DNA of 24,391 bases from a virus: IMG/VR virus record IMGVR_UViG_3300009084_000071, positions 1 through 24,391 of that record. One strand, 5' to 3'. Both the position numbers and the translations under genes were made by a program. Positions 2,059 to 22,327 of the stretch are shown in pieces; positions within the stretch are counted from its first letter, which is position 1; each line of letters begins with the position of its first letter. The notes under the pieces were generated by a model. It did not search any database and was not told the DNA's origin. It saw nothing but the letters and a program-made list of their open reading frames with translations.

Positions 2059-2496
2059 ATGAGAAAGGTAAAGCAGGCACACGGCGGGACATTGACATTG
2101 GCAGAAAAAGGCGACGTGCTAAACCCAGCCGGGCCATCCCGTAAACTTACGTCAAAAATCATTGCTGACCTCAAAGAGGACGGCGTAGAGGTAATTACAC
2201 CGAACCAGGTCTCGGAGGCGATTTCAGTTTTGCTAAACCTGACAATGGATGACCTAAAGAAATTGGCCGAGGATAAGGACGTAGCGGTACTGATACGAAG
2301 GACAGCTCGAAGGTTGGCAATAGCATCGGATAAGGAGTGGGATAAGGTAATAAGCGACAACTTGGACAGGGCGCACGGCAAACCGGCACAGGCCGTTGAC
2401 GTAACAAGCAAGGGGCAAAGCATTAACCCGCTTTCGGAGTTAAGCCTGGAAAGGCAAGCCGAAATACTTCGACTAATGAGAAATGCTGACACATGA
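2059..2496 (+). CDS. Probable terminase small subunit (DUF5681-like)
   Basis: 145 residues, starting 5 bases after the radical SAM stop. The segment NPAGPSRKLTSKI near residue 22 and the later DRAHGKPAQAVDV segment resemble small phage proteins annotated as DUF5681 or small terminase. Those proteins recognise phage DNA and load the large subunit. The middle is charged and helical. The last 14 bases overlap the large terminase gene, the usual place for a small subunit. I see no certain helix-turn-helix, so the call rests mainly on position and on these two segments. Confidence 0.6.
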   Translation: MRKVKQAHGGTLTLAEKGDVLNPAGPSRKLTSKIIADLKEDGVEVITPNQVSEAISVLLNLTMDDLKKLAEDKDVAVLIRRTARRLAIASDKEWDKVISDNLDRAHGKPAQAVDVTSKGQSINPLSELSLERQAEILRLMRNADT

Positions 2497-3898
2497 AGAT
2501 GTGATACAGATGAAATGCAACTGCTTTAAGGCGGGCATTTTTGATGTTCTGGATTTGCTCCCTAAGCAGGAAGAGGCCATGAAGATTTTAACAAATCATT
2601 CGGTTTCTGAACTACTTTACGGAGGTGCGAAGGGCGGGGCAAAAAGTTGGCTTGGTTGTGAGTGGTTGCTTTGGTCTTGTCTTTCTTACCCCGAAACGAG
2701 ATGGTACGTAGGCAGACACTTTTTAAAACAGATCAGGGAATCCACGTTGGTGACGTTTAGGAAAGTCTGCAAAAAGCATCACATTCCAGTTTCGTTTTTT
2801 CACATCAACGAGAACGAAGTGACGATAAAATTTAGTAATGGATCGTTTATTGGGGGGATAGAATTACGGCACAAGCCAAGCGACGCGGAATATGACGGAT
2901 TTGGCTCGACTGAATACACCGGAGGTTGGATTGAGGAAGGCGGGGGGGTTGCTTATAAGGCTTACGAAATCGGCAGGATGAGTATAGGCCGGCACCTAAA
3001 TAAGGAATATGGGATTTACGGGAAGTTGTTTATTACGGCGAACCCTGCCAGAAATTGGATGTATAGCATTTTTTACCGGCCTTGGAGTTTGGGGAATCTT
3101 CTTCCAGGAAGGGTGTTCATCCAGGCCTTTGTAACGGATAACACAAAAGTTGACGCCGGGTACAAAGAGCGGCTGGAGGGCTTAACAGGATCGGCCAGGG
3201 AACGGCTACTTTTGGGGAATTGGGATTACGAAGACGACCCATTAGCGTTGATAGAATATGATGCCATTGTCGATTTGTTTACAAATGACTACCTTCGTAC
3301 CGACGAAACGAAAAAAAGGTTAGTGATAGATGCGGCGATGTACGGATCAGACCTTTTTAGGATGGGCGTTTTTTACGGGGATGTTTTGGTGGATCACACA
3401 TGGATGCCGAAAAGCGGTGGGAAAGAAATAATCACAAAAGCGAAAGGATTACAGGCAAAGCACGGCATAAGAGCGTCAAATATACTTTATGACGCGGATG
3501 GTGTAGGCGCTTTCATCGGAAACAAGGGGGGGTTCATTCCCGGGGCGGTTGCCTTTCACGGCAACGCATCCCCGTTGAAAAGAAAGTACGATAAAGTTAC
3601 AGATTATGCTAATTTAAAGGCTCAATGTGGGTATGCCTTAGCAAGCGATCTGAACGAGGGTAAAATGTGGGCCAGGGCGGTAACGGACGAGAAAGACAGG
3701 GAGATGCTTTCAGAGGAGTTAGCCCAAATTAAGAGGGGTAAAGTTGACACGGATGAAAAGTTAACCCTGATGAAAAAAGAACTTATTGTCGAGGCGTTAG
3801 GGAGAAGCCCGGATTTTTCGGATTTATTTTTGATGTCGAGGTATTTTAAAATACTTGAATCGTTAAAAAGGCCTGCTCACGAAAGGCCACTTCATTGA
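2483..3898 (+). CDS. terL: Terminase large subunit (packaging ATPase-nuclease)
   Basis: 471 residues, a normal length for TerL. The N-terminal ATPase has a Walker A-type loop GGAKGGAKS at residues 47-55, a Walker B-type strand ending in the acidic pair E151-E152 (GGWIEE), and a coupling motif TAN at 185-187. The C-terminal RNase H-like nuclease shows acidic residues at D283 (VIDAA), D337 (ILYDADG) and D444 or D447 (SPDFSD). It powers DNA translocation into the prohead and cuts concatemers, working with the small subunit and the portal. The portal gene is unusually far away, at 19304. The gene overlaps the small-subunit gene by 14 bases and the next gene by up to 4. Confidence 0.95.
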   Translation: MLTHEDVIQMKCNCFKAGIFDVLDLLPKQEEAMKILTNHSVSELLYGGAKGGAKSWLGCEWLLWSCLSYPETRWYVGRHFLKQIRESTLVTFRKVCKKHHIPVSFFHINENEVTIKFSNGSFIGGIELRHKPSDAEYDGFGSTEYTGGWIEEGGGVAYKAYEIGRMSIGRHLNKEYGIYGKLFITANPARNWMYSIFYRPWSLGNLLPGRVFIQAFVTDNTKVDAGYKERLEGLTGSARERLLLGNWDYEDDPLALIEYDAIVDLFTNDYLRTDETKKRLVIDAAMYGSDLFRMGVFYGDVLVDHTWMPKSGGKEIITKAKGLQAKHGIRASNILYDADGVGAFIGNKGGFIPGAVAFHGNASPLKRKYDKVTDYANLKAQCGYALASDLNEGKMWARAVTDEKDREMLSEELAQIKRGKVDTDEKLTLMKKELIVEALGRSPDFSDLFLMSRYFKILESLKRPAHERPLH

Positions 3899-4098: not shown

Positions 4099-4619
4099 CG
4101 ATACTTGAACAAACGTTAGCTCTTTACGAACGGCTACAAAAAGAAAAAAACCCTTCGCATACCGCTACCAGGTCAATGGAGGGGTACATTACTCAGCATT
4201 TTGGCCGAGAAGGTATGCTGGCAGTTGCGAAACTTAAATCGGTTCGGCCGGCAACCGTAAACAAGGGTGAACCCAGGGAGATGCGCGAATTCAAACCAAC
4301 TGTGGGAAAGCAAGCGGCTTCGCTTACGCCGGTATCAGCGAAGCCCCGCAAGGAGTTCAAGCCGGTATCCAGTCCGTCAGAGCCCAAAGAATTATCCAGC
4401 CCGGAGGTAAAAAAAGATGTTGTGGTAAGTAATCCAGTTGTGGCAAATACTAACCCAGTAAACAAGGCATTCCTTTTGGAAAAGCCTTCTACGTCTGATA
4501 TTATGGGGAAATACTCCCCCGAGCAAATCAAAGCGTTCTTCGACGCCGAAGGAATTACATATTCCGCTGAAAAGTCACACCGGCAACTCGCAGGACAACT
4601 GGTAAGGCTGAATGATTGA
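4095..4619 (+). CDS. Hypothetical protein with C-terminal HeH/LEM-like domain
   Basis: 174 residues, with an ATGA overlap with the previous gene. The N-terminal 45 residues are helical. A long Pro/Ser/Lys-rich linker follows (about residues 55-125) and contains two EFKP repeats, probably disordered. The last 40 residues (SDIMGKYSPEQIKAFFDAEG and onward) look like a HeH/LEM or SAP-like two-helix domain (a helix, AEGITYS, then a second helix). Such domains bind DNA or proteins and occur in small phage proteins of head and packaging regions. The role is unknown; a packaging or assembly accessory fits its position. The 3' end overlaps the next gene by 8 bases. Confidence 0.65.
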   Translation: MTILEQTLALYERLQKEKNPSHTATRSMEGYITQHFGREGMLAVAKLKSVRPATVNKGEPREMREFKPTVGKQAASLTPVSAKPRKEFKPVSSPSEPKELSSPEVKKDVVVSNPVVANTNPVNKAFLLEKPSTSDIMGKYSPEQIKAFFDAEGITYSAEKSHRQLAGQLVRLND

Positions 4620-5559
4620 AATAATCTTAAAATCAAATAAGGGGTTTTCAAGGACGATACAAGCGCCGTCTTCCCTTTCGGAACTGCCACTTCCGAGGTA
4701 TGTTGATTTTTTGGTAGAACAGCGAAAGATTGGATATGATGTGAACAACGTAGAAATCATGGCTAAGGCCGTCGAGGCGTTCTACAAAATCCCGATGGAT
4801 GAGATACTATCCCAAACATCGGGAAATCTGTACGGAAAAGATATTAAGGGGTTGGAGGGATCATTAAGGGGCTTATATTCTTATGCTTCTAAAATGGTTG
4901 CCGATGGATTAGGAAGGATACCCAACGAGACAGACAGTTTTCAATACAAAGGTGAGACTTATGTAATGCCGGTGATTTTAAAACAGGCATTAGCTGGTGA
5001 ACTTATCTTGCCAGACGTTCAGACGATTGAAGCCATTGAGGCAGCGGAAATTCAGAGGCACACGAGCCAGCAGATCGAAGCAGTCGGGGACCCGGTCGGA
5101 AGTTTAAAAAGGAAAATAATGGAGTTGGTCACGGAGCATGCCGAAACACACGGGGCCGATCCTGGATTAGTGAAAGAAGCAAATCAGATTATTGAGGCGG
5201 AAACCGAAAAATTAGGCGACTCGGATGGTACACTAAGGTGTACAGAGTTTTTGAAAATGTGCGCGATAATGTACAAGAAAGAGGGGGAACACTTACCGGT
5301 TAACGACGGCGATAGGGAAAAATGGATCAACGACAGGGCGATACACTTTTGGGAATTAGATGCCCAAACCTGCCTGAATGTGTCTTTTTTTTTTCGGAGT
5401 ATTTCGCCGCGCTTAGAAGGCACAAAAGATATGTTTGGTTTTTTGAGGGAAGAAAGTTCGAAAGTTCTGGCGGAGATATTAAGTCTGAAATGGCTGCTTT
5501 CGATAGAGCGCAGGCTCACAACGAAAAGGTCTTTAGTCGAGTTGGGTGGAGAGGGTTAA
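4612..5559 (+). CDS. Candidate tail assembly chaperone, zero-frame product
   Basis: 315 residues in the zero frame. The segment FLKMCAIMYKKEGEHLPVND followed by RAIHFWELDAQTCLNVSFFF resembles proteins upstream of tape-measure genes in Bacteroidota phages. A run of ten T lies at codons 258-261. After it, the zero frame adds 54 residues ending in LVELGGEG, while the -1 frame stays open for 95 codons and looks more natural. In many siphophages the chaperone is made in two forms by such a shift, and both help assemble the tube around the tape measure. Here four genes separate it from the tape measure, which is not the classic spacing. The chaperone role is inferred; that the gene codes for protein is clear. 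Confidence 0.7.
   Translation: MIEIILKSNKGFSRTIQAPSSLSELPLPRYVDFLVEQRKIGYDVNNVEIMAKAVEAFYKIPMDEILSQTSGNLYGKDIKGLEGSLRGLYSYASKMVADGLGRIPNETDSFQYKGETYVMPVILKQALAGELILPDVQTIEAIEAAEIQRHTSQQIEAVGDPVGSLKRKIMELVTEHAETHGADPGLVKEANQIIEAETEKLGDSDGTLRCTEFLKMCAIMYKKEGEHLPVNDGDREKWINDRAIHFWELDAQTCLNVSFFFRSISPRLEGTKDMFGFLREESSKVLAEILSLKWLLSIERRLTTKRSLVELGGEG
5385..5394 (+). promoter_or_regulatory. Ten-T slippery run, candidate -1 frameshift or slippage site
   Basis: Ten T at 5385-5394 follow GTG TC in the zero frame, read as TCT TTT TTT TTT CGG. Any -1 move inside the run keeps Phe-Phe pairing and leads into the open frame that continues as SEYFAALRRHKRYVW. Either ribosomal -1 shifting or RNA polymerase slippage could use it. 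An eleventh T in the true genome would join the two frames as one gene, so a miscounted homopolymer is a real alternative. I saw no strong stimulatory hairpin just downstream. Confidence 0.65.
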
Positions 5560-5681
5560 TCCTTCTTTTGATGGAAAAAAAATGGTTCAACAGCCCTAAT
5601 ATGTCGCCTTACGAAAGTGCATGCAGGGCTAATTTTGAAACCGTTGTATCTTTGATAAGTGTTGAAAACGCAAGTGCATGA
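5394..5681 (+). CDS. -1 frame extension of the candidate chaperone
   Basis: The -1 frame runs from the T run to a TGA at 5679-5681 and adds 95 residues. With the 261 zero-frame codons it would give a protein of about 356 residues. The frame contains FSRVGWRGLILLLMEKKWFN, MSPYESACRANFETVVSLIS and VENASA. It reads as a folded, conserved-looking domain and extends past the zero-frame stop into otherwise empty sequence before the next gene at 5685. An independent start at 5322 is possible, but its first 24 codons only shadow the zero frame. The extension is therefore best read as the C-terminus of a fusion product. Confidence 0.65.
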   Translation, partial: SEYFAALRRHKRYVWFFEGRKFESSGGDIKSEMAAFDRAQAHNEKVFSRVGWRGLILLLMEKKWFNSPNMSPYESACRANFETVVSLISVENASA

Positions 5682-5684
5682 TAA

Positions 5685-6434
5685 ATGACTGACCTGACGC
5701 TCAAAGACTTCTTCCAAATAGGGAAGAACGCCGCGCAACTTTATCCGCAAAGCACCCCATGCCTGCAGCCGCAGGCTTTTCGCGTTTTGCAGCGCCAACG
5801 AGGCACAGAGGTCGGGGAAGACAATTTAGGTGCCGTTCCAACCGATAAAGACAATCCATTTTTTTGGTCAAGAAGGTGGCACAATGCCAAGTACAATCCG
5901 AATTCAATTTCCTTTGAATGGCCTATCCTTACAATGTTTGAGGCGTACAGCGAATCGAAGGATTCCCCGATGGGCGACATTTTCAGGAGGTGTTACCGGG
6001 TTCAATTGTCGGTTTTAGACAAGTACAAAGAAGAATGCACCACGATAAAACATAGGGGCTGCGAAGCAAGAACGGTCAATCAGATTTACATTGACACCGA
6101 AAAAATACTGGACGGTGTTTTGAAATACTTCGGCAAAACGGTTATCGCAACGACGGATGACTGTTCAACTCCAAAGGTTTACTATCTGCCCTGGCTGATT
6201 GTCCAACGAGAAAACGCGGGGCTGAACTTTGATGTTTTATTTGAATTGCAGGACAAGTTAAACGCCCAAAACCCAACTGTAAGATTTGGGCGTGTGGAAA
6301 GACCTACTCAGCAGATTTACGGCACGGAAGTGTTCTTGAATTTTTGCACCACGAATTGCGAATCAATCGAATATAACTTAGACATTCCCGACTTCGGTAC
6401 AGTAGCCTTTGAAGCGGGATGTTCAAACTGTTGA
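5685..6434 (+). CDS. Unrecognised tail-region protein
   Basis: 249 residues with an ATG start shortly after the chaperone extension. I do not recognise the family. It is Trp/Tyr-rich in the middle (DNPFFWSRRWHNAKYN) and ends with a Cys-rich tail (NFCTTNCES and AGCSNC). No signal peptide or membrane segment is visible. Its place between chaperone and tape measure is where siphophages often carry tail terminator or head-completion proteins, but nothing in the sequence proves that. The next gene starts inside its last 16 bases. Confidence 0.7.
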   Translation: MTDLTLKDFFQIGKNAAQLYPQSTPCLQPQAFRVLQRQRGTEVGEDNLGAVPTDKDNPFFWSRRWHNAKYNPNSISFEWPILTMFEAYSESKDSPMGDIFRRCYRVQLSVLDKYKEECTTIKHRGCEARTVNQIYIDTEKILDGVLKYFGKTVIATTDDCSTPKVYYLPWLIVQRENAGLNFDVLFELQDKLNAQNPTVRFGRVERPTQQIYGTEVFLNFCTTNCESIEYNLDIPDFGTVAFEAGCSNC

Positions 6435-6739
6435 AAATGATTAAGAATCTTTTTAAAAGAGACGGCTATAAAAAGAACATCGTTGCCGATGCAAGGGCAC
6501 GGGTTGCCCAAACGGCCATGAAACAAATCATAAGCGACATGCTCGCCGAAGAGAACGCGATATTTGAACGGGCATGCCGGGAAAACGCCGAACCTCCGTT
6601 AACTGAAATCAGCATAGAGATTTTGGAACTGAATGAAATTGTAATGTGCCAATTTTCCAATGATGACGGTTCAAGAAAATGGTTGGAGCAAAGAGGTACG
6701 ATAATTTCACCTGTTGTTGTGCAAAAATTTAAGATATGA
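6419..6739 (+). CDS. Small hypothetical protein, tail region
   Basis: 106 residues from the ATG at 6419; a second ATG at 6437 would remove six residues. It starts with an amphipathic basic helix (FKLLKMIKNLFKR), then a charged helical stretch with an acidic Glu-rich centre, and ends in a beta-like segment (GTIISPVVVQKFKI). No known motif is seen. It overlaps genes on both sides (16 bases upstream, 4 bases downstream), so it belongs to the same coupled chain. Function unknown. Confidence 0.6.
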   Translation: MFKLLKMIKNLFKRDGYKKNIVADARARVAQTAMKQIISDMLAEENAIFERACRENAEPPLTEISIEILELNEIVMCQFSNDDGSRKWLEQRGTIISPVVVQKFKI

Positions 6740-7056
6740 AATTATCGTACGTATGCCTTTTTTTCCTTTGTTCATGTTCAAGAGAGTTATACTTCGTTGA
6801 TCCTAAAATGAAGGTCAATGTCGTAGAAACAGTAAATAAAAATGTTACAGACTCTACATGTGTGAAACTGTATGATTATATTTTAGTTGGAGGCGAAAAA
6901 GTGCCCGTTGAGGTTAAACTTTATGGGGTAATAACCAACAAAGAGCAAATAAAGAGAGAACAGGAGGCAGATAGAAAATACTCAATAATGATAGGAGTGT
7001 GGAGCGGAATTGTCGCGCTAATTGCAGGGCTAACTGTTCACGGATCAACGCATTGA
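6736..7056 (+). CDS. Small lipoprotein with C-terminal membrane segment; candidate unimolecular spanin
   Basis: 106 residues, overlapping the previous gene by 4 bases (ATGA). The N-terminus (MKLSYVCLFFLCSC) is a signal peptide with a plausible lipobox L-C-S-C and lipidation at C14. The centre (residues 20-80) is beta-rich and then charged. Residues 82-102 (YSIMIGVWSGIVALIAGLTV) form one membrane helix. Lipoprotein signal plus C-terminal anchor within about 110 residues is the architecture of unimolecular spanins such as phage T1 gp11, which join outer and inner membranes and fuse them at lysis. The position inside the tail module is odd, and no holin or endolysin is nearby. An envelope-anchored lipoprotein of another role is possible. 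Confidence 0.7.
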   Translation: MKLSYVCLFFLCSCSRELYFVDPKMKVNVVETVNKNVTDSTCVKLYDYILVGGEKVPVEVKLYGVITNKEQIKREQEADRKYSIMIGVWSGIVALIAGLTVHGSTH

Positions 7057-7613
7057 CCTTTCTGGAAGACATCCGCCCGATTGTTGAAGAGGTTATGAAA
7101 ACCCTACAATCAGGATTCAGAAATGAGCAAGAAAAGCAGGGGCACAAACTGACTGGAAAGTTGGGAGATTCGATTGAATACGAAATATCTCAGGATGGAA
7201 AGGATGTAAAGGCTACTATGTATGCCGAAGACTACGGGGTATACGTGGAGCTTGGTGTATCGGCAAGCAAGATTCCATTTAGCGGCACCGGGGGCGGCGG
7301 CACGTCAAAGTACATTGAAGGGCTTATATCGTTTTGGGAGTTAAGAGGTCTATCAGGAAGGGAGGCAATAGGGGCCGCGTTCGCAACCGCACACGTACAC
7401 GCAAGGGAAGGCATGCCGTCAAACGCAAGTGCAAGGTTTTCATCAACGGGTGAAAGAACAGGTTTTGTCCGGGCGGTAGTTGAAAAGAACCTGGAAGGAA
7501 TCGGAAGGTTAATAGAAGACAAGTATGGCGCTGTTTTAGAATTACGATTTGCTGAAATGTTCAACCCTGAAAATACGGGATTAGACATTGGTGTAATAAA
7601 ATTAAGAGCATGA
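7053..7613 (+). CDS. HK97 gp10-like head-tail/tail-completion protein
   Basis: About 186 residues from the TTG at 7053, which overlaps the previous stop as TTGA. A GTG at 6999 would add 18 residues (RNCRANCRANC...) that read as a shadow of the preceding membrane helix, so I prefer the TTG. The segment TGKLGDSIEYEISQDG, then a strand, then YAEDYGVYVELGVSASKIPF follows the pattern of HK97 gp10-like proteins (TGxLxxSI... YAxxxExG). Those act at the head-tail junction or at tail completion in siphophages. Its place directly before the tape measure fits. It ends in an ATGA overlap with the tape-measure gene. Confidence 0.75.
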   Translation: MTFLEDIRPIVEEVMKTLQSGFRNEQEKQGHKLTGKLGDSIEYEISQDGKDVKATMYAEDYGVYVELGVSASKIPFSGTGGGGTSKYIEGLISFWELRGLSGREAIGAAFATAHVHAREGMPSNASARFSSTGERTGFVRAVVEKNLEGIGRLIEDKYGAVLELRFAEMFNPENTGLDIGVIKLRA

Positions 7614-10600
7614 GCAAAGTTATATTCGAACTTGTTGTCCAGGATGTCAATTTGTCCGCCGAACTTGTCAAGCAAAAGGCGTTAGTCAAGGACTTGGCCA
7701 AGGAACTGCTGGGTATAGAGAAGGGCACGGTAAAGGAAAGGGAACTTGCCGAACAAATCGGTAAAACAAGGGCCGAGATCATAAAGTTAACCGCCGAACA
7801 AAAAGCACTCAATAAGGAGTTTGCCGCCACGCAAGTACCTAAAGATTCTTTGGCGGGGCTTAGATTAGAGTATTCAAAACTTACCGATCAGATCACAAAA
7901 TTATCGAGGGCGGAAAGAGAGGCCGACTTCGGCAAAAGACTGATAGCGAACGCCAACGGCATAAAAGGCGAAATAAACAAAATCGAGGAAAGTGTAGGAA
8001 GATTTACGGGCAGTGTTGGAAATTACAAACAGGCCAGGCTTCAACTTGCCGACCTTATCACCGGTGGGTTAGCGACGGGGGGGATAGTGGTAGCGCTTTC
8101 GAAAGTTATTGAAATTACAAAAATCGGAATATCCGAAACAATAAAATACGAAAAGGCGCTGGATAGATTGCAGGCGCTCACCGGGATTACGGACAAAGAA
8201 TTAGAGGGATTCAAGCAGGTAGAAGAATCACTAAGGTCGATTCAGGTAAAGGGGGAAGAGATAGTAAACACCGGGACCGATATAACTAATGCGCTCACCT
8301 TGGTAGGTTCTGCCAGGCCTGAATTATTGAAAAGCGCCGAAGGATTAGGAGAGGTTACAAAGCAGGCAATAATATTACAAAAAGCATCTGGCGATAGCCT
8401 GGATGCGTCCGTAAAAGCCCTTACGACCACAATGGGGCAGTTCAACGCTGAGGCGGGGGATGCTGGAAAATTGGTAAATGAGTTAGCGGCAGGCGCAAAA
8501 GTTGGATCGGCTGAAATTCCAGATATTACACAAGCCTTAGCGCAATTTGGGGCGGTTGCTAAATTGACAAACGTTTCAACGTCGGAATCTATCGCCCTAA
8601 TTGAAACCTTGGCAAAGTCAAAAATTCCGATAGAACAAATTGGAACCCAGTCGAGAAACATACTTACCGACCTTGCCAGTGCCGAGGCTTTGCCCCGAAA
8701 AGCGCAGGCAGCGTTTGCTAAATTTGGAATTGACCCAAAGGTTTTAGCCGATCAAACATTAACACTCACTGAAAGGCTTACGGAACTGCAAAAGTTAAAA
8801 GGTGACATTCCCGCCCTAAAAGCAATTTTCGGAAAAGAAAATTTGCTGGGCGCGGCGGTTCTTTCAACGAATGTAGCCACACTCGAGGAGTTAAGGATGG
8901 GTATAATAAACACAAGCGAAGCGTTAGACCAAGCGGCTATTAATGCAGATAACACAAGCACGGCCCTTTTGAACCTCAAAAACAAGGCATTAAATCAACT
9001 ACAAAAAGATTTTCAAGACGGGTCCCCACTTATTAAGAGTTTCGCGGAAAGCCTTGGAAGCTTATCGGATAATGGGGTTTTGAGTTTTTTGTTGAAGTTC
9101 ACAAATCAACTCAGCTTAGCATTTAATGCGGTTCAGTTAATACGGAATCAAATAAAAATAGTTAGCGGTGAAGCAAGAACGAGCGGATTTTTAGGGTTTT
9201 TAAAAGGCGATATATTACCCGATGTCCAAAAGGCGACCTCGTTAGATTTTGAAACATCACTTGGAATACCTAACAAAGAAACATCTAAAAGCGTATTAGG
9301 GCTAACACCGGAAGAAAAAACGGCGGCGCTGTTAAAGAAGATAGAAGCCGAAGGGGACAACGTTTCAGAGAAAAACACTAAAAACGCAAAAAAGAAAAAG
9401 GAAGAAGATTTAGGAGCAATCGACTCTTTAAGGTCTTTGGAAAAAGCAGTAAGGGATATTACGGATCAGATAGAAAAAGCTCCTGCCGATGCTAAAATAC
9501 TCGATCCGCTCGTTGCGAAACTCGTATTTGCCGAGGCGCGGCTTAAGGCGTTCAAGTCGAGGTTAGATGAAATCAGAAATCCAGACAAAAGAAGTGAACA
9601 GGATCGGGCTAACGCGGGCTTTTCGGAGTTAGGTGATTCGCCCACGGTTGAGGTAGACCGAGCAAAGTCTATTTCTACTGAAATAATAGACGTCGAAAAA
9701 TCGACAGATGAACAGGTTTTAGAACTGCGCCGGTCGCTTACGGAAGCATCATTAGAGCTAACAAGAACCGAAGCGGCGGAAAAAAAACGACTTGCTGAGG
9801 AGGAAATAGCAAGGGATAAGGAACGAAGAAAACAGATATTTGATGCAGCCGTTGATTCGGCATATAGTATCGCCGGTGCATTAACCGACATTTCAATAGC
9901 CAAGCAACAGCAGGAACAAACATTACAGGAGCAAGCATTAGAGGCTGAGTTTCAAAAGAGACGAGACGCCGCAGCAGGTAACGCTCCGAAGTTGGTAAAG
10001 ATCGAAAAGGACTACCAAAAAAGAAAACTTGAACTCGAAAAACAATCCGCCGAAGAAAGGAGAAAGATAGCCCTCAAAGAGGCAATCATCCAAGGAGCGT
10101 TGGCAATTATAAAGGCCTTGGCAACGGGGAATTACTTCGCGGCAATCGCTGCCGGTATCGCAACCGCGTTACAAATCGCAGTGATAAATAAACAAACCTT
10201 CGCCAAGGGTGGCGCGGTTAAAAGCGGAACATTTGGCGGGAAGTCACACGCTCAGGGTGGTACACAAGGCCATTTTGATGATGGCACATTTGTTGAAGTT
10301 GAAAAGGATGAAGACTTTATAATATTAAACAAAGCGGCATCTTTTGAAAGGAAACGGCTTTCTAACTTAAATTCAAGATTCGGAGGTCGGAGATTCGCCG
10401 CTGGAGGGTCGCTGGACTTTACCCCTCAAATTGCGGTACCTTCGGCATCTCCTGGGACCACATTAGTTGTGACAGCACAAGCGGCGTTTACCGACGACCA
10501 GATCAGATTAATGGCCAGGGAGATAGCGACCCAAAACGCGATAGGAACTCGCCAGGCCATAGGCGAAGGATTGAACGACAACAACAGACTACAAGAACGC

Positions 10601-10633
10601 AAGGCCGCAGCGGCTATAAATTCAGTAATATGA
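7610..10633 (+). CDS. Tail tape measure protein (TP901 family)
   Basis: 1007 residues. The N-terminal 135 residues are coiled coil (KDLAKELLGIEKG... KLTAEQKALN). Residues about 170-380 form the TP901-type core, with an EKALDRLQALTGI opening, Ala-rich helices and a KIPIEQIGTQSRNIL segment. Residues about 590-820 are charged coiled coil rich in Glu, Lys and Arg. A hydrophobic stretch at about 824-860 (GALAIIKALATGNYFAAIAA) is typical of the segment used during DNA ejection. The C-terminus is Gly-rich (FAKGGAVKSGTFGGKSHAQG). The protein sets tail length; at the usual 0.15 nm per residue the tail would be about 150 nm. ATGA overlaps link it to both neighbours. Confidence 0.93.
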   Translation: MSKVIFELVVQDVNLSAELVKQKALVKDLAKELLGIEKGTVKERELAEQIGKTRAEIIKLTAEQKALNKEFAATQVPKDSLAGLRLEYSKLTDQITKLSRAEREADFGKRLIANANGIKGEINKIEESVGRFTGSVGNYKQARLQLADLITGGLATGGIVVALSKVIEITKIGISETIKYEKALDRLQALTGITDKELEGFKQVEESLRSIQVKGEEIVNTGTDITNALTLVGSARPELLKSAEGLGEVTKQAIILQKASGDSLDASVKALTTTMGQFNAEAGDAGKLVNELAAGAKVGSAEIPDITQALAQFGAVAKLTNVSTSESIALIETLAKSKIPIEQIGTQSRNILTDLASAEALPRKAQAAFAKFGIDPKVLADQTLTLTERLTELQKLKGDIPALKAIFGKENLLGAAVLSTNVATLEELRMGIINTSEALDQAAINADNTSTALLNLKNKALNQLQKDFQDGSPLIKSFAESLGSLSDNGVLSFLLKFTNQLSLAFNAVQLIRNQIKIVSGEARTSGFLGFLKGDILPDVQKATSLDFETSLGIPNKETSKSVLGLTPEEKTAALLKKIEAEGDNVSEKNTKNAKKKKEEDLGAIDSLRSLEKAVRDITDQIEKAPADAKILDPLVAKLVFAEARLKAFKSRLDEIRNPDKRSEQDRANAGFSELGDSPTVEVDRAKSISTEIIDVEKSTDEQVLELRRSLTEASLELTRTEAAEKKRLAEEEIARDKERRKQIFDAAVDSAYSIAGALTDISIAKQQQEQTLQEQALEAEFQKRRDAAAGNAPKLVKIEKDYQKRKLELEKQSAEERRKIALKEAIIQGALAIIKALATGNYFAAIAAGIATALQIAVINKQTFAKGGAVKSGTFGGKSHAQGGTQGHFDDGTFVEVEKDEDFIILNKAASFERKRLSNLNSRFGGRRFAAGGSLDFTPQIAVPSASPGTTLVVTAQAAFTDDQIRLMAREIATQNAIGTRQAIGEGLNDNNRLQERKAAAAINSVI

Positions 10634-15827: not shown

Positions 15828-15835
15828 TACGTTTG
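15828..15835 (+). promoter_or_regulatory. Candidate Bacteroidota -7 promoter element
   Basis: TACGTTTG matches the Bacteroidota -7 consensus TAnnTTTG exactly and lies in one of only three gaps longer than 40 bases. No good -33 TTTG stands about 20 bases upstream, so the match is partial. If real, transcription would begin near 15842, and the protease would start at the ATG at 15851 rather than at the TTG at 15833. Confidence 0.4.
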
Positions 15836-16741
15836 TATCACGAAATACAAATGGCCGACAATCGAGACATAGATGGTTTTTTGCTTAGTTCTGACTGCTG
15901 GGAAATCCATTTGGGTTTTGGCATATCAGAACTGTATCGCTATTGGGAAGATTGCCGCCTACGTTCGGAGGGTTTTTCTTACGATGAACTCGGAATCGCC
16001 AAAAGGCGGCACGAACAACGACCGATTATAATTGATTCAGATGCGCACTTTGTGGAAGGCGCAACCATTTACCAACAATCAGAAACGCCGCTAAATTCTA
16101 TTGCCCTACTTAAATTATCGGGTGTGATGCGCTCCCAGGATGGAATTTCTACCCGTGGCATGGATTCGATGATCGGCGATTTAAGAGCCGCCTATTCCAA
16201 TTCAAATATAAAAGGGGTAATCATCGAAACAAACTCCGGAGGAGGGGAAAGCCTCGCCGGGACGATGTTGAAATCCGCGATAAGCGAAAGGAATAAACCC
16301 GTTGTAGGTTTTGGGCACATGGTCGCTTCGGCTGCATACCGGGCTTTGAGCGGGGCGGATGAGATAGGTTTGAGCGGAAACGGATCGGAAAGTGGAAGCA
16401 TAGGCACTATGATTTCGATGGACCGAAAAACCCTGGAAGATTATAAGGCTCGGTATATGGATTTTTATGGAGCTACCGCTCCTGAAAAGAACTCCGAATA
16501 TCGAAGCGCAGTACAGGGAATCTTCGAGGGGTTACAGGCAAGGGTGAACGAAAAAACTGTCCAGTTCCAAAACGAAATCCGGGATGAGAGAAATCTAAGG
16601 GGCGGTACTGCAAAAGTAGCAGAAACCCTCAACGGTGCAATGTACGCCGCCGAACAATCCAAAATCAGAGGATTAAGCGATTGGACCGGAAACATGAACT
16701 ACGCAATCAAAAGAGTTAACGCCTTACGGGCAAAATATTAA
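15833..16741 (+). CDS. Capsid maturation protease, S49/SppA-like
   Basis: 302 residues from the TTG at 15833; the ATG at 15851 (MADNRDIDG) is more likely if the upstream -7 element is real. The ClpP/crotonase-like S49 fold is clear: IKGVIIETNSGGGES at 127-140, then VASAAYRALSGADEI with the probable nucleophile S166 (S160 from the ATG), then GSESGSIGTMISM at 184-196. Phage S49 proteases cut scaffold and capsid precursors during head maturation. The adjacent scaffold candidate and major capsid gene are the expected partners. The first 80 residues are extra to the family core. Confidence 0.9.
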   Translation: MYHEIQMADNRDIDGFLLSSDCWEIHLGFGISELYRYWEDCRLRSEGFSYDELGIAKRRHEQRPIIIDSDAHFVEGATIYQQSETPLNSIALLKLSGVMRSQDGISTRGMDSMIGDLRAAYSNSNIKGVIIETNSGGGESLAGTMLKSAISERNKPVVGFGHMVASAAYRALSGADEIGLSGNGSESGSIGTMISMDRKTLEDYKARYMDFYGATAPEKNSEYRSAVQGIFEGLQARVNEKTVQFQNEIRDERNLRGGTAKVAETLNGAMYAAEQSKIRGLSDWTGNMNYAIKRVNALRAKY

Positions 16742-16745
16742 AAAA

Positions 16746-17255
16746 ATGTTTGACGCAAGCAAATCTAAACTTTTCGGTCCGATCATGGAAGCGCTTCGGG
16801 GTTTTTTCTCCCTTAGTGAAAGTGCGACCGAATCTGATATTCATAATGCTCTGGACGGACAAAAGCCATTATCCGAGCAACTATCTGATGCAAATAACGA
16901 GACCAAGTTTTTCGAAATATCGGAACGCTTCACGGCGCTGGAAACATCTTTTTCGGAAATGAAAACTGCAGGTGAAGCAAAAGACACCCTGATTTCGGAA
17001 ATGCAAGCCGAAATGGAATCCCTGAAATTGGCTGCCGATGATTCGATAAAAGCATTCGAAACAAAAAAGGTGGAATACGAAAATCAAATCAAAGTCCTGG
17101 CCGGTCAAAACGCCACGTTAAAAGCCGGAAAAAGTCAGGAACAAGACCAAGGTGGAGATGACCACGAAGCCGGTAAAAAAAGAGTGAACGATCAGGAAGT
17201 TATTGCGCTCGTTGACGGGCCTTTGAAAAAAATGCTCCAAACGAGCGCAAACTAA
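16746..17255 (+). CDS. Probable capsid scaffolding protein
   Basis: 169 residues, starting 4 bases after the protease stop. It is acidic and mostly helical; residues 50-125 form a coiled coil (FTALETSFSEMKTAGEAKDT and onward). A disordered acidic linker (SQEQDQGGDDHEAGKK) and a short C-terminal helix (VIALVDGPLKKMLQ) follow. Size, coiled coil and position between protease and capsid are typical of scaffolds, which organise the shell and are then removed by the protease. No sequence motif proves it. Confidence 0.7.
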   Translation: MFDASKSKLFGPIMEALRGFFSLSESATESDIHNALDGQKPLSEQLSDANNETKFFEISERFTALETSFSEMKTAGEAKDTLISEMQAEMESLKLAADDSIKAFETKKVEYENQIKVLAGQNATLKAGKSQEQDQGGDDHEAGKKRVNDQEVIALVDGPLKKMLQTSAN

Positions 17256-17273
17256 ACATTTAAAATTTACGCC

Positions 17274-18497
17274 ATGCCTATTCTTGAAGGTGGATTTAAT
17301 TTCAGTTCTAACAGCTTCGCAAACCGTATTGAGGTTCCTACGTCGGCTGCTATAACTATTTTTGATAATGTTGCCGTTTTACAGCGGGATCAATACGCAC
17401 GGGAACTTGGCCTTTATGGTGAAGTTGTTTTGGGCAGTGACCTGGAAGCAAAATTCATGTCTTTCAATACCCCCAAACACCTTTTAGGGCCGCGCACATC
17501 GTGTACCGTGTGGACACCAAAGGGAGGCTTGCGGCCTAACATTGAAAGTTTTCCTACATGCCCAGTAGAGTATGACGGAACTCAGTGCCCAGATGTTTTT
17601 TATGGAACCTGTTTTGAGAAATGGTTCGGGCCGGGGAATATGGTCCGCGACTTTACAGGCACGGCGGCAGGTCAGAAAATGTTTTCCCTGATGTTGATGA
17701 AGGTTTATCAAGGTCTTGGAAACTCGTTCTTTGACCTTTATAACTTCGCCAACCACCCGCTTATTTCCCAGGTGAACACCCTTGGCTCTTACGCGGTCGG
17801 CGTTCCCGAATGGGAGGACTACGTTGACCAAATGCTCGACAATGGCAACGGAAAGAACCTTTGCGCCGGACTTATCACCCAACTGGACGCGCTGAAAAAT
17901 TCCGGCGGTTACCCCAACTTGGCTTTGGACATTCCAGAATCCGACATTAACTTCACCACCGGAGCATACACGGGTGATATTATCGCCCTGCTTGATGAAA
18001 TTATCGCCGCTGCCGGCCCTGAACTTGAAACACAAATCAACAGCGGCGCGATGGTAAACGGTACGATGCGCTACCCCATCATCCTTGCTACCAAGGCGGA
18101 ATTTCAGGCATTGAAAAACTATTATAAATCAATGGCCCCGACCAATGAACTCGCATATCGGTACATGATCGAACTGTCAGACGGCACAACGAAATTAATG
18201 CCGAATGTTCTGTATTACGAAAACCTGCCGGTTGTTCGTTGGGATGCACACGCGTCTTTTGACGCCGTTACAGGTGCCCAAAGTCACCGCGTCGCCCTTG
18301 TTGCGCCTGGTGTTTTTGGGGTTCTTCACGACGTTTCCGATTTGAAGCAATGGGAAGGCATGGGTCTTGTCATTGAACAATCCAAAATCCTTCGGGATAA
18401 AGGACGAATTGATATGACCACTACATTCAGGTGGGGCGCGGCAATCGCCGATCCGAGGTTTATTGTGATGGCGTCCAAAATTCTTTTACCCGTCTAA
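17274..18497 (+). CDS. Major capsid protein
   Basis: 407 residues, preceded by an A/T-rich leader without a Shine-Dalgarno sequence. The length, the position after protease and scaffold, and the downstream portal support a major capsid protein of HK97-like fold. The sequence is mixed alpha/beta, with a long helix near residues 140-160 and a late strand-rich domain (PVVRWDAHASFDAVTGAQSH). The C-terminal DMTTTFRWGAAIADPRFIVM resembles the final strand of capsid proteins of Bacteroidota phages. It probably assembles as pentamers and hexamers around the scaffold. There is no obvious protease cut site. Confidence 0.85.
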   Translation: MPILEGGFNFSSNSFANRIEVPTSAAITIFDNVAVLQRDQYARELGLYGEVVLGSDLEAKFMSFNTPKHLLGPRTSCTVWTPKGGLRPNIESFPTCPVEYDGTQCPDVFYGTCFEKWFGPGNMVRDFTGTAAGQKMFSLMLMKVYQGLGNSFFDLYNFANHPLISQVNTLGSYAVGVPEWEDYVDQMLDNGNGKNLCAGLITQLDALKNSGGYPNLALDIPESDINFTTGAYTGDIIALLDEIIAAAGPELETQINSGAMVNGTMRYPIILATKAEFQALKNYYKSMAPTNELAYRYMIELSDGTTKLMPNVLYYENLPVVRWDAHASFDAVTGAQSHRVALVAPGVFGVLHDVSDLKQWEGMGLVIEQSKILRDKGRIDMTTTFRWGAAIADPRFIVMASKILLPV

Positions 18498-18507
18498 ATT
18501 CTAAATT

Positions 18508-19059
18508 ATGGCTTGCGGAATAACAGGTATTAATTCGGGAACAGCGTGCTTAGGAAACGAGGGCGGTATTGTAAGAAGTTACGCCGCCAAACTCGCAGAC
18601 ATTACGGCTGTGACATTAACGGGGAACGCGATAAGCAACTTTACAATGGCTACTACTGGTCTATGGAAAGCCTTCGTTTACGACCGTGACAATACCGCGA
18701 ATATCAACCAGGTAGGTTCCTTGAATAACAACAGATTCAGCGTAGAATTGACTACGTTCATGAAGTTCAAGGGGCTCGCACAGGCTTCGATAGACGCGGC
18801 CAATACGTCTAAGGATTGTTGTGATACGGTTTGGATTCACGTTTTAGGAAACGGCCTCAAAGTAGTTCAAGGCATAGAACTTGACGCATCCGTAACAGCG
18901 GGTTTTGTTCCTTCGAAGAATCGTTCTACTCGGATTGTTCCGACGATCAATTCGGACACCTCGGCAAACGAACTGAAAATGGAGTACAGCATAGCCGGTA
19001 ATCAGGACTCGTTTACGCCTTCCACAACTTTAACTGATACTGCAATACTCGCACTATAA
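18508..19059 (+). CDS. Probable major tail tube protein, or head decoration protein
   Basis: 183 residues, beginning MACGITGINSGTACLGNEGG. The MACGIT opening resembles small structural proteins next to capsid genes in Bacteroidota phages. It is beta-rich, with the central segment NNNRFSVELTTFMKFKGLAQ, a Cys pair in TSKDCCDTVWIHVLG, and a compact C-terminus. Size and strand pattern fit a tail tube subunit, but the position directly after the capsid also fits a decoration protein. If it is the tube protein, it is separated from the rest of the tail by the head genes. Its last base overlaps the next ATG. Confidence 0.6.
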   Translation: MACGITGINSGTACLGNEGGIVRSYAAKLADITAVTLTGNAISNFTMATTGLWKAFVYDRDNTANINQVGSLNNNRFSVELTTFMKFKGLAQASIDAANTSKDCCDTVWIHVLGNGLKVVQGIELDASVTAGFVPSKNRSTRIVPTINSDTSANELKMEYSIAGNQDSFTPSTTLTDTAILAL

Positions 19060-19307
19060 TGGAAGAAATTAAAGTTAAAGCAAAGAAAATCCGAATTAAG
19101 GCTGCGGCTGTTTACGAATTAGGCCCTACCCACGTCACTCAATTAGACGGCGTTTCGGTTTCGCTTACAAGCGAAGACGTCAAAGGAAGGAAAGAGGCAA
19201 ACAAATTTGGTCCGGGGGGTGATGTTATTTCCAGGGCCGCTACTCAGCCCCAACTCCGAAAACTTTACGACCAAGGCAATCCGTTACTCGAAGAAATTGA
19301 AGAATGA
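19059..19307 (+). CDS. Small hypothetical protein in the head module
   Basis: 82 residues, with ATG sharing one base with the previous stop and an ATGA overlap with the portal gene. The N-terminus is basic (KVKAKKIRIKAAAVYELG). The C-terminus ATQPQLRKLYDQGNPLLEEI looks like a short helix seen in small proteins near connector genes. No other motif is recognised. Coupling on both sides argues that it is expressed with the portal. Confidence 0.65.
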   Translation: MEEIKVKAKKIRIKAAAVYELGPTHVTQLDGVSVSLTSEDVKGRKEANKFGPGGDVISRAATQPQLRKLYDQGNPLLEEIEE

Positions 19308-20692
19308 GCGATATCACTACATGCTGCGATGAACCATCTTTGAACCTCAAAGAGCGGATACACCGTAACAGTAGTAACCGGGAAATAAAGTTCATTGACA
19401 CGATAAGAAATCCAATTCCTGATGAAATCCGTGACTCAAAGGATTTAAAAAAGTTTTTTCAGGATTGGAATTTGGTTCCTTACGCTGGCAGTACAATAGA
19501 ATCGGGGCAAAGTTTATTAGCGTGGTACCTGATGCTCGCTAAGTTGAGCTCTACGCACAACGCGTCTGTACAGAAGATGATTAAGTACGCTTTTGGGGGG
19601 AAGGCGATGTTTGTCAAGTTGCTGGACCCTGAATTTTCGGTACAAGACGAGGTTGCGGAATTGAACGTAAACGAACAGACCGTGTACCGGGATGCGATAA
19701 ACGAATTTTTCACATTTCAGGACGGGATAGGGAAATTTCACCGGGCGGTTGCTAAGTCTTACAAGGACACCGGAAACGCTTTTGTGGAATTGACTTTCAG
19801 CGAAACGTTAGGAGTGGGCAGGATTTTTGTAAGGGCCCACAGGATCACACACGTTTTATACGTCAACACTTTACCGGGTGAACCAAAAGAGGTTGCAATT
19901 TCCCCGGTTTGGACGGATGAATATCTGAAAAAGTACCCGGCAAGAAAAGTTGCCGTTTCTACAAAATACGCTTCGGTTTTCACGAAAACAAAAGAAGGAT
20001 TAAAAACGGTCTTTCATTTGAAAAACGGCGACAATACATGGTACGGGAGGCCCGATTCAGAAGGTTCCGACCTCTATAAAATGAGGGAAGTCCAGGATGC
20101 GATTTACCAAATCAAACAGGCAAACGCAAACTTCACGGGTCAGATTATCATTGAAGTAGAAGACGACGACCCGGAATTTTCAGCGGCGGTTGAAGATGAA
20201 AAATCTCAAACAGTAGGTTTTAATTCTTTCGCCGAAAGGATGGAACACAATTACACCCAAAAGGCAAACGAGCCTCAAAGTATCATGGTCACGGCAAGAC
20301 CTTACGGATCAAAGCCGATGTTTGTACATCAACTTTCACCGAATACGAATGAAAATTGGTACAAGGTGACAGGTGAAATATCGGAAAAGAAGATCGTAAT
20401 GGCACACGGGATCACATTGAGGTTCATGGGGTTCGATGTTTCTAACGGATTAGGGGGTGGCGATATGTTGTTGGCAGATTATGTTCTAAATAACGAGCCT
20501 GCCATAAATGATTTAAGGACGGAAGTAATAATGTTTACGAGCGAAATAATGAACGCCGGATGGGATTTGGTTGGCCGGGAAGAGTGGAAGAAAAATTCAG
20601 TAACCTTTGTAACCCCAATTCAATCACAAATAGACGCTTTCAAAAATGCTGATAACGCCGTACGAAGTACTAAAATACAGCCCGGCGGGTAA
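19304..20692 (+). CDS. Portal protein
   Basis: 462 residues, coupled by ATGA to the preceding gene. The portal fold is suggested by the N-terminal wing (SLLAWYLMLAKLSSTHNASV), the middle KNGDNTWYGRPDSEGSDLYK (the family Y-G-x-P motif), the following helical stem (MREVQDAIYQIKQANANFTG), and the C-terminal helical crown region. It forms the dodecameric gate through which the terminase packages DNA and to which the tail attaches. It follows the capsid gene instead of preceding it. It overlaps the next gene by 47 bases. Confidence 0.85.
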   Translation: MSDITTCCDEPSLNLKERIHRNSSNREIKFIDTIRNPIPDEIRDSKDLKKFFQDWNLVPYAGSTIESGQSLLAWYLMLAKLSSTHNASVQKMIKYAFGGKAMFVKLLDPEFSVQDEVAELNVNEQTVYRDAINEFFTFQDGIGKFHRAVAKSYKDTGNAFVELTFSETLGVGRIFVRAHRITHVLYVNTLPGEPKEVAISPVWTDEYLKKYPARKVAVSTKYASVFTKTKEGLKTVFHLKNGDNTWYGRPDSEGSDLYKMREVQDAIYQIKQANANFTGQIIIEVEDDDPEFSAAVEDEKSQTVGFNSFAERMEHNYTQKANEPQSIMVTARPYGSKPMFVHQLSPNTNENWYKVTGEISEKKIVMAHGITLRFMGFDVSNGLGGGDMLLADYVLNNEPAINDLRTEVIMFTSEIMNAGWDLVGREEWKKNSVTFVTPIQSQIDAFKNADNAVRSTKIQPGG

Positions 20693-21592: not shown

Positions 21593-22306
21593 ATGTTCCG
21601 AAGAATTTTAAATCCAGATCAATCGGCAACCAATTTGCTGAAAATGTACCAGGGCGATTCGGGTTGTTGTGGCGATACGTTGCCTATCTGCCAATACACC
21701 GCTACCACTGTGACGGCGCAGAATATTGACACAATGATTATCGCCGTTGGTGGCGTGAATCGAACCCTGACTTTCCCTGCTGCCGTTGGCGCTGGCGCTT
21801 TGGCTGCTGTTGTTCAGGCGGCGATTCAAACGCTTATTGTGGCCCAAGGATACGAGGATGACGGCGTGGCTCCGAAGGGGGTTGTTGTGACCGCTGTTTC
21901 GACAAACCTTTCTATCGTAATTACAGGCGACGTCGTTCCTATATCTATCACAACGGCCACTCCTGCGATTTCGGCTTTTGATGCTGATTGTACGGTTGAA
22001 AATCAGTGTACCTACACGATTGAAAACTACGCCGGGGGGGCGACAAACTCGATGGTTATCAACGGCACTGCTTACGCCTTGGGTGCGATCACTCCGGGAA
22101 CGACAAGCGGCGCGACGGTTAAAACCGCAGTTGACGGGGCGTTCACATCCGCATTAATCACCACCGGAACGGTAGTTGTAACCCTTACCGGAAGCGGAGT
22201 GGGAACGCTGTACACTATCGCAATTCCAGGTTTGCCGAGCGACACAGAAATTACACTCGGTGGAAATTACCTTGGACGGGCATCATGCGTACAGGTATAC
22301 GTTTAA
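21593..22306 (+). CDS. Structural protein with two tandem Cys-led beta domains
   Basis: 237 residues. After a 30-residue N-terminus with CCGD, two similar domains follow: residues 33-125, opening CQYTATTVTAQ, and residues 139-224, opening CTYTIENYAGG. Each has a Gly/Thr/Val-rich beta pattern and an Ala-rich helix in its middle (AVVQAAIQTL and VKTAVDGAFT). The protein is low in charge and probably exposed on the particle. A head fibre, decoration or tail appendage role is likely, but I cannot choose. A run of 11 A spans the stop, and a strong terminator ends this transcript. Confidence 0.65.
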   Translation: MFRRILNPDQSATNLLKMYQGDSGCCGDTLPICQYTATTVTAQNIDTMIIAVGGVNRTLTFPAAVGAGALAAVVQAAIQTLIVAQGYEDDGVAPKGVVVTAVSTNLSIVITGDVVPISITTATPAISAFDADCTVENQCTYTIENYAGGATNSMVINGTAYALGAITPGTTSGATVKTAVDGAFTSALITTGTVVVTLTGSGVGTLYTIAIPGLPSDTEITLGGNYLGRASCVQVYV

Positions 22307-22327
22307 AAAAAAAAATATCAAACCATG

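Follow-up and report, generated by a model that had tools for sequence, protein, structure and literature searches.

A programmed −1 recoding event very probably occurs at a run of ten T residues (T10) in a gene of the virus record IMGVR_UViG_3300009084_000071, of which the whole 24,391-nucleotide stretch analysed is referred to here as the window. As judged from sequence comparison, the recoding is real, conserved and unannotated; it is of a known kind, resembling that of lambda G/GT, and the sequence family and the site are new. Programmed −1 recoding is well supported by a conserved split arrangement, by an in-phase slippery site, by selection that switches frame and by fused homologues that lack the site. 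The gene, whose parts are as follows, is probably a tail assembly chaperone, a functional assignment drawn from its layout and from gene order and meaning that it works like lambda G/GT, not that it is a member of that family.

4612–5559, plus strand: zero-frame ORF of 315 aa, the short form of the probable tail assembly chaperone, with 261 codons to the run and a 54-codon tail (ORF reading; held-out profile of relatives)
5385–5394, plus strand: T10 recoding site (in-phase heptamer common to 161 of 161 split loci)
5395–5559, plus strand: zero-frame tail past the run, 54 codons (tail length 8 to 81 codons among 42 representatives)
5394–5681, plus strand: −1-frame C-terminal domain, 95 codons plus stop (held-out profile of marine −1 domains)

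The preliminary description had proposed that a ten-T run joins two reading frames, and its account was borne out: the run is exactly ten T long, the zero frame ends 54 codons further on, and the −1 frame stays open for 95 codons and stops at a TGA (5679–5681), leaving 3 bases before the next ATG at 5685. Across the run the zero frame reads TCT TTT TTT TTT CGG, the first T being the third position of the TCT codon, and the tract consists of two overlapping in-phase T_TTT_TTT heptamers (5385–5391 and 5388–5394). It is the only run of nine or more T on the plus strand of the window. Joining the zero-frame part to the −1 domain gives a predicted fusion of ∼356 aa. An A8 tract is located within the −1 domain (5575–5582; −1 frame ATG GAA AAA AAA TGG), with A7 at a similar place in several marine relatives, and a second slippery tract may exist. 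The longest homopolymer of the window is an A11 tract at 22305–22315, directly at the TAA stop of the ORF at 21593–22306 and apparently intergenic.

When close relatives of the window gene were sought with single sequences, only two near-identical contigs were detected, with none among genome contigs, and tblastn with four family members and the window −1 domain gave no match among 50,697 named phages. The first 17 relatives were partly chosen by layout, which is circular; the argument, therefore, rests on later searches, performed with protein profiles carrying no knowledge of the T run, and on held-out tests. A T7 at position 1385 of L117, found by layout, was dropped, as it sits in a methylase-like ORF. 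A terminase profile brought in 138 loci; the relatives L009 to L018, picked via terminase, had seemed to lack the gene, and several of them in fact carry fused forms. The window zero-frame protein matched locus L082 from residue 216 to residue 260 to 263, the match ending at the run (tblastn E about 4e-5), and both L081 and L082 have a T9 at the corresponding place with an open −1 frame. Searches with a zero-frame profile yielded 24 loci in Bacteroidota and the family of Pedobacter genome G012, all with T7 to T10 and the second domain in the −1 frame, and 17 more in other groups (7 split with T9 or T7, 9 fused, with a junction free of T runs, and 1 cut). In viral contigs, a −1-domain profile detected 80 loci, comprising 76 split with T7 to T11 and 4 fused without a run, and a marine zero-frame profile detected 42, comprising 41 with T9 and 1 cut. 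L191 and L328, which are cut at a contig end, and L326, which has an upstream frame break, were not counted as evidence. When the window was held out, a profile of zero-frame relatives found it at an E-value of 1.7e-8, and with a profile of marine −1 domains the top-ranking matches of all six-frame ORFs in the loci came from the window and the two contigs nearly identical to it (E 3e-4). Three of the tblastn and profile E-values refer to small local sets rather than to whole databases. Pairwise comparisons, also within small sets, gave E-values of 4e-7 for the window zero frame against L082 and 5e-7 for the window −1 domain against L106. These comparisons indicated that both halves of the window gene have relatives with the same run at the same join.

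A total of 161 split loci were assembled, mostly from Bacteroidota phages and prophages and with some contigs counted twice; 42 diverged representatives, less than 70% similar near the run, were defined among them. In all 161, a run of 7 to 11 T with an in-phase T_TTT_TTT precedes the C-terminal domain, which is encoded in the −1 frame, and recurrence in so many loci places the arrangement far beyond chance. This result supports the earlier suggestion that a programmed shift, by −1 movement of the ribosome or by polymerase slippage, generates two forms of the protein. T9 predominates among the representatives (32), followed by T7 (7), T10 (2) and T11 (1), while T8 is confined to one clade; the zero-frame tail extends for 8 to 81 codons and the −1 domain for 79 to 103. 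All of the T7 loci (n = 61) and T8 loci (n = 10) have their run in the phase that fits the heptamer; as a run of nine or more T holds the heptamer in any phase, phase is tested only by these 71 loci, which belong mostly to one clade plus L195. The homologue search that had been advised, for a single fused protein or a conserved run with two frames, found both: some lineages are fused without an in-phase site and others are split, all with the site. The in-phase T_TTT_TTT is absent from the fused single-frame homologues, and two fused members from Prevotellaceae metagenome-assembled genomes (L051 and L055) have a T7 whose phase excludes the heptamer. No locus of sufficient length to judge lacked the −1 domain, an absence that had been named as evidence against a fusion. 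Further T or A runs of at least 9 are rare, numbering 7 in 188 kb when two junctions listed for L202 and L204 are left out.

The frame under selection was examined in 39 marine loci. Before the run, 2,733 of 4,379 substitutions fell on zero-frame third positions, compared with 1,047 and 599 at the other two positions; in the 150 bases after the run, 1,501 of 2,600 fell on −1-frame third positions, compared with 630 and 469. It is precisely at the run that the third-position bias moves to the −1 frame, even though the zero frame continues open beyond it. These counts are not independent, because pairs share branches, but the change of frame is nonetheless plain. The substitution pattern indicates that purifying selection changes frame at the run.

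Both frames are simply fused in some relatives, as they would be if the window carried one fused gene in which sequencing or assembly had missed an eleventh T, the competing explanation offered in the preliminary description. Two more metagenome contigs of the same phage were available (IMGVR 3300032456 and 3300007521), which are 99.7 to 99.9% identical to the window with SNPs elsewhere; the 421 bp around the site, T10 included, are identical in all three. A missed T is very unlikely because T10 is present in three assemblies, and sequencing error is very unlikely because homologues have out-of-frame runs of T7, T8, T9, T10 and T11 at the corresponding position, followed by a −1 domain that is itself homologous. 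Runs of each of these lengths occur out of frame in isolate genomes as well as in contigs, T7 is not an error-prone length, and the −1 relation holds whatever the run length. An error of this type is, hence, scarcely credible. A T10 tract can also slip during replication, and DNA-level changes in run length could then turn the fusion on and off by phase variation. None of the 161 loci, however, has a run length that would fuse the frames; runs of T7 are not long enough to slip at a high rate; and T10 is common to the three assemblies of the window phage, making phase variation most improbable. Much the same low probability attaches to a pair of overlapping genes, translated without a frameshift, in which the second starts at an internal ATG. 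The −1 frame of the window does contain an ATG at 5322, 21 codons upstream of the run, but in 126 of the 161 loci the −1 frame, read from the stop preceding it to 5 codons beyond the run, contains no ATG, GTG or TTG, and separate initiation is impossible for these loci for that reason; 153 loci have no ATG there. Separate initiation would, moreover, leave the in-phase T_TTT_TTT unexplained.

Under programmed −1 recoding, most translation would produce the 315-aa zero-frame protein, while a minority of events would shift by −1 within the T run, yielding the fusion with its 95-residue C-terminal domain. The slip would be mainly ribosomal, with two tRNA-Phe molecules re-pairing by −1 from U_UUU_UUU. 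The ribosome is somewhat favoured as the main slipping machine in the window, since T7 and T8 serve a large clade and the separate lineage L195, below the length for polymerase slippage, and since U_UUU_UUU fits the tandem-slippage rule. Tandem −1 slippage at this heptamer accounts for every member, T7 and T8 included. At the family level, a heptamer without a long homopolymer suffices, as the 71 T7/T8 loci have it in the required phase; the window itself has T10. T-run slippage by polymerase has been reported for more than 8 T (PMC3711429), which leaves the ribosome as the simplest explanation for T7 members, and the reported range for bacterial transcription slippage is runs of 9 or more A/T (PMC5009743, PMC3711429). 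A conserved 3′ RNA structure was not detected: the consensus energy was 0.00 for 17 Sphingobacteriaceae-type loci and the mean z score just after the run was −0.67. A downstream stimulator is not obligatory for this class of −1 frameshift.

RNA polymerase slippage in the T9 to T11 members, the window T10 included, is a possible but less likely alternative, in which a U would be added in some mRNAs (10 to 11) and ribosomal slippage would be retained for T7 and T8. Except in one clade, runs are nearly always of at least 9 T, longer than the ribosome needs; 35 of the 42 representatives have T9 or longer, with T9 itself in 32, as does L194, a genome of 56% G+C. The lack of a detected 3′ stimulator would also fit polymerase slippage. 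Two weak hints, from tests that ignore relatedness, point the same way: Phe codons of the −1 frame are pure TTT where TTC is common (L145, L165 and L058), and +1-frame stops lie close behind the run, at a mean of 4.1 codons versus 8.8 in a crude null. The latter test is weakened by Glu and Asp codons after the run, which create TGA unaided. Against a polymerase mechanism, runs of only 7 or 8 T underlie the same fusion in the large clade and in L195, and on a fast tree, many forks of which are weak, run length switches between short and long at least 5 times. As dnaX uses either mechanism, depending on the species (PMC3711429), a mixed family is plausible. There is, thus, some chance that the T9 to T11 lineages, including the window, make their fusion by polymerase slippage and that the family, its two proteins unchanged, has more than once exchanged polymerase for ribosomal slippage or the reverse. 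The papers that were searched yielded no phage tail chaperone reported to be expressed through polymerase slippage. Shigella mxiE and Thermus dnaX, known cases of transcription slippage at T9 or A9 to A10, resemble the window family in that a homopolymer of at least 9 joins two frames and its length is conserved in most representatives; the window family differs in also having T7 and T8 members at the same junction. For the window, slippage by the ribosome is still the preferred reading.

The gene is part of a conserved cassette, for which the following plus-strand features were identified in the window.

2483–3898, plus strand: terminase large subunit, upstream end of the cassette (phrog_2, E 1.6e-17)
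5685–6434, plus strand: next gene, 249 aa, with a relative at the same place in L081 (tblastn E 7e-5)
6419–6739 and 6736–7056, plus strand: ORFs between the chaperone gene and the tape measure gene (ORF reading)
6999–7613, plus strand: tail-completion/Neck1-like protein, 204 aa, with relatives in L081, L082, L147 and L156 (phrog_5, E 0.0035)
7610–10633, plus strand: tape measure protein, 1,007 aa, the presumed chaperone client (PHROG tape measure, E 5e-38; Pfam PhageMin_Tail, 1e-24)

As previously noted, four genes separate the T10 gene from the tape measure gene. The order of terminase, T10-type gene, small genes and tape measure, with matches to tape measure profiles, is shared by the window, Pedobacter prophage L201 and L202, and is kept with divergent terminases; L204 has the same layout, its candidate tape measure having no profile match. 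A conserved gene of ∼240 aa, glycosyltransferase-like by eye, lies directly 3′ of the chaperone gene in marine phages (L147:8390-9100 and L156:4675-5397). Downstream of the tape measure gene, the window region 15833–20692 contains a head protease (15833–16741) and a weak portal match (19304–20692), an unusual order; the protease is likewise downstream of the tape measure gene in prophage L201. On a Tannerellaceae MAG contig (L073:3156-4572), a terminase 50% identical to that of the window is broken into two ORFs; portal-like genes follow on that contig, which has no chaperone gene.

The role of the two proteins would be to join tape measure protein and tail tube subunit at a set ratio. The family shares with lambda gpG/gpGT a short zero-frame protein and a −1 extended fusion carrying a second domain, a site of the XXXYYYZ type (here the in-phase T_TTT_TTT) near the end of the zero frame, and an operon and strand in common with the tape measure gene. 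The lambda gpG:gpGT ratio is about 30:1 (PMC5009743). In contrast to the lambda genes, which adjoin the tape measure gene, the window family gene is located just after terminase and four ORFs before the tape measure; in L201 and L202 several genes likewise intervene, and only the strand and cassette are shared. A wider family of lambda gpG/gpGT-type frameshifts was reportedly described by Xu, Hendrix and Duda in 2004. The window family further differs from lambda gpG/gpGT in having no relation to it detectable by sequence, profile or fold, in its site, a pure run of 7 to 11 T, and in the permanent fusion of some relatives.

No match for the chaperone family was obtained in Pfam, NCBIfam or the named PHROGs. 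Structural searches of the PDB (Foldseek, VIA-align) with models of pLDDT 72 and 75 gave unspecific helical matches only, none above noise, and nothing in the PDB matched the natural-fusion model (pLDDT 75). Foldseek matches of the predicted zero-frame domain (pLDDT 72.5) were to uncharacterised phage proteins only. These were the BFVD proteins A0A1B1IQJ1 and A0A516L677, together with Flavobacterium phage 6H gp10 (E 4.5e-5, 2.3e-4 and 4.8e-3, respectively), for which no function is named; gp10 differs in having no long T run and a junction of another kind. In this phage (L205, NC_021867; 10047–10927, minus strand), gp10 is 191 aa and stops early, and is followed by ∼300 unannotated bases whose −1 frame encodes a domain resembling the C-terminal half of L184, a fused homologue; the junction may reflect another kind of shift or a base error.

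These results point to an unannotated recoding gene family in Bacteroidota prophages and uncultured phages and provide a probable tail chaperone for phages in which profile libraries find none. Annotation pipelines would otherwise lose the −1 domain. With a natural range of T7 to T11 runs and fused members, ribosomal and polymerase slippage can be compared within one gene family, and the family opens the question of why a ratio of short to long chaperone is needed for some tails but apparently not for others.
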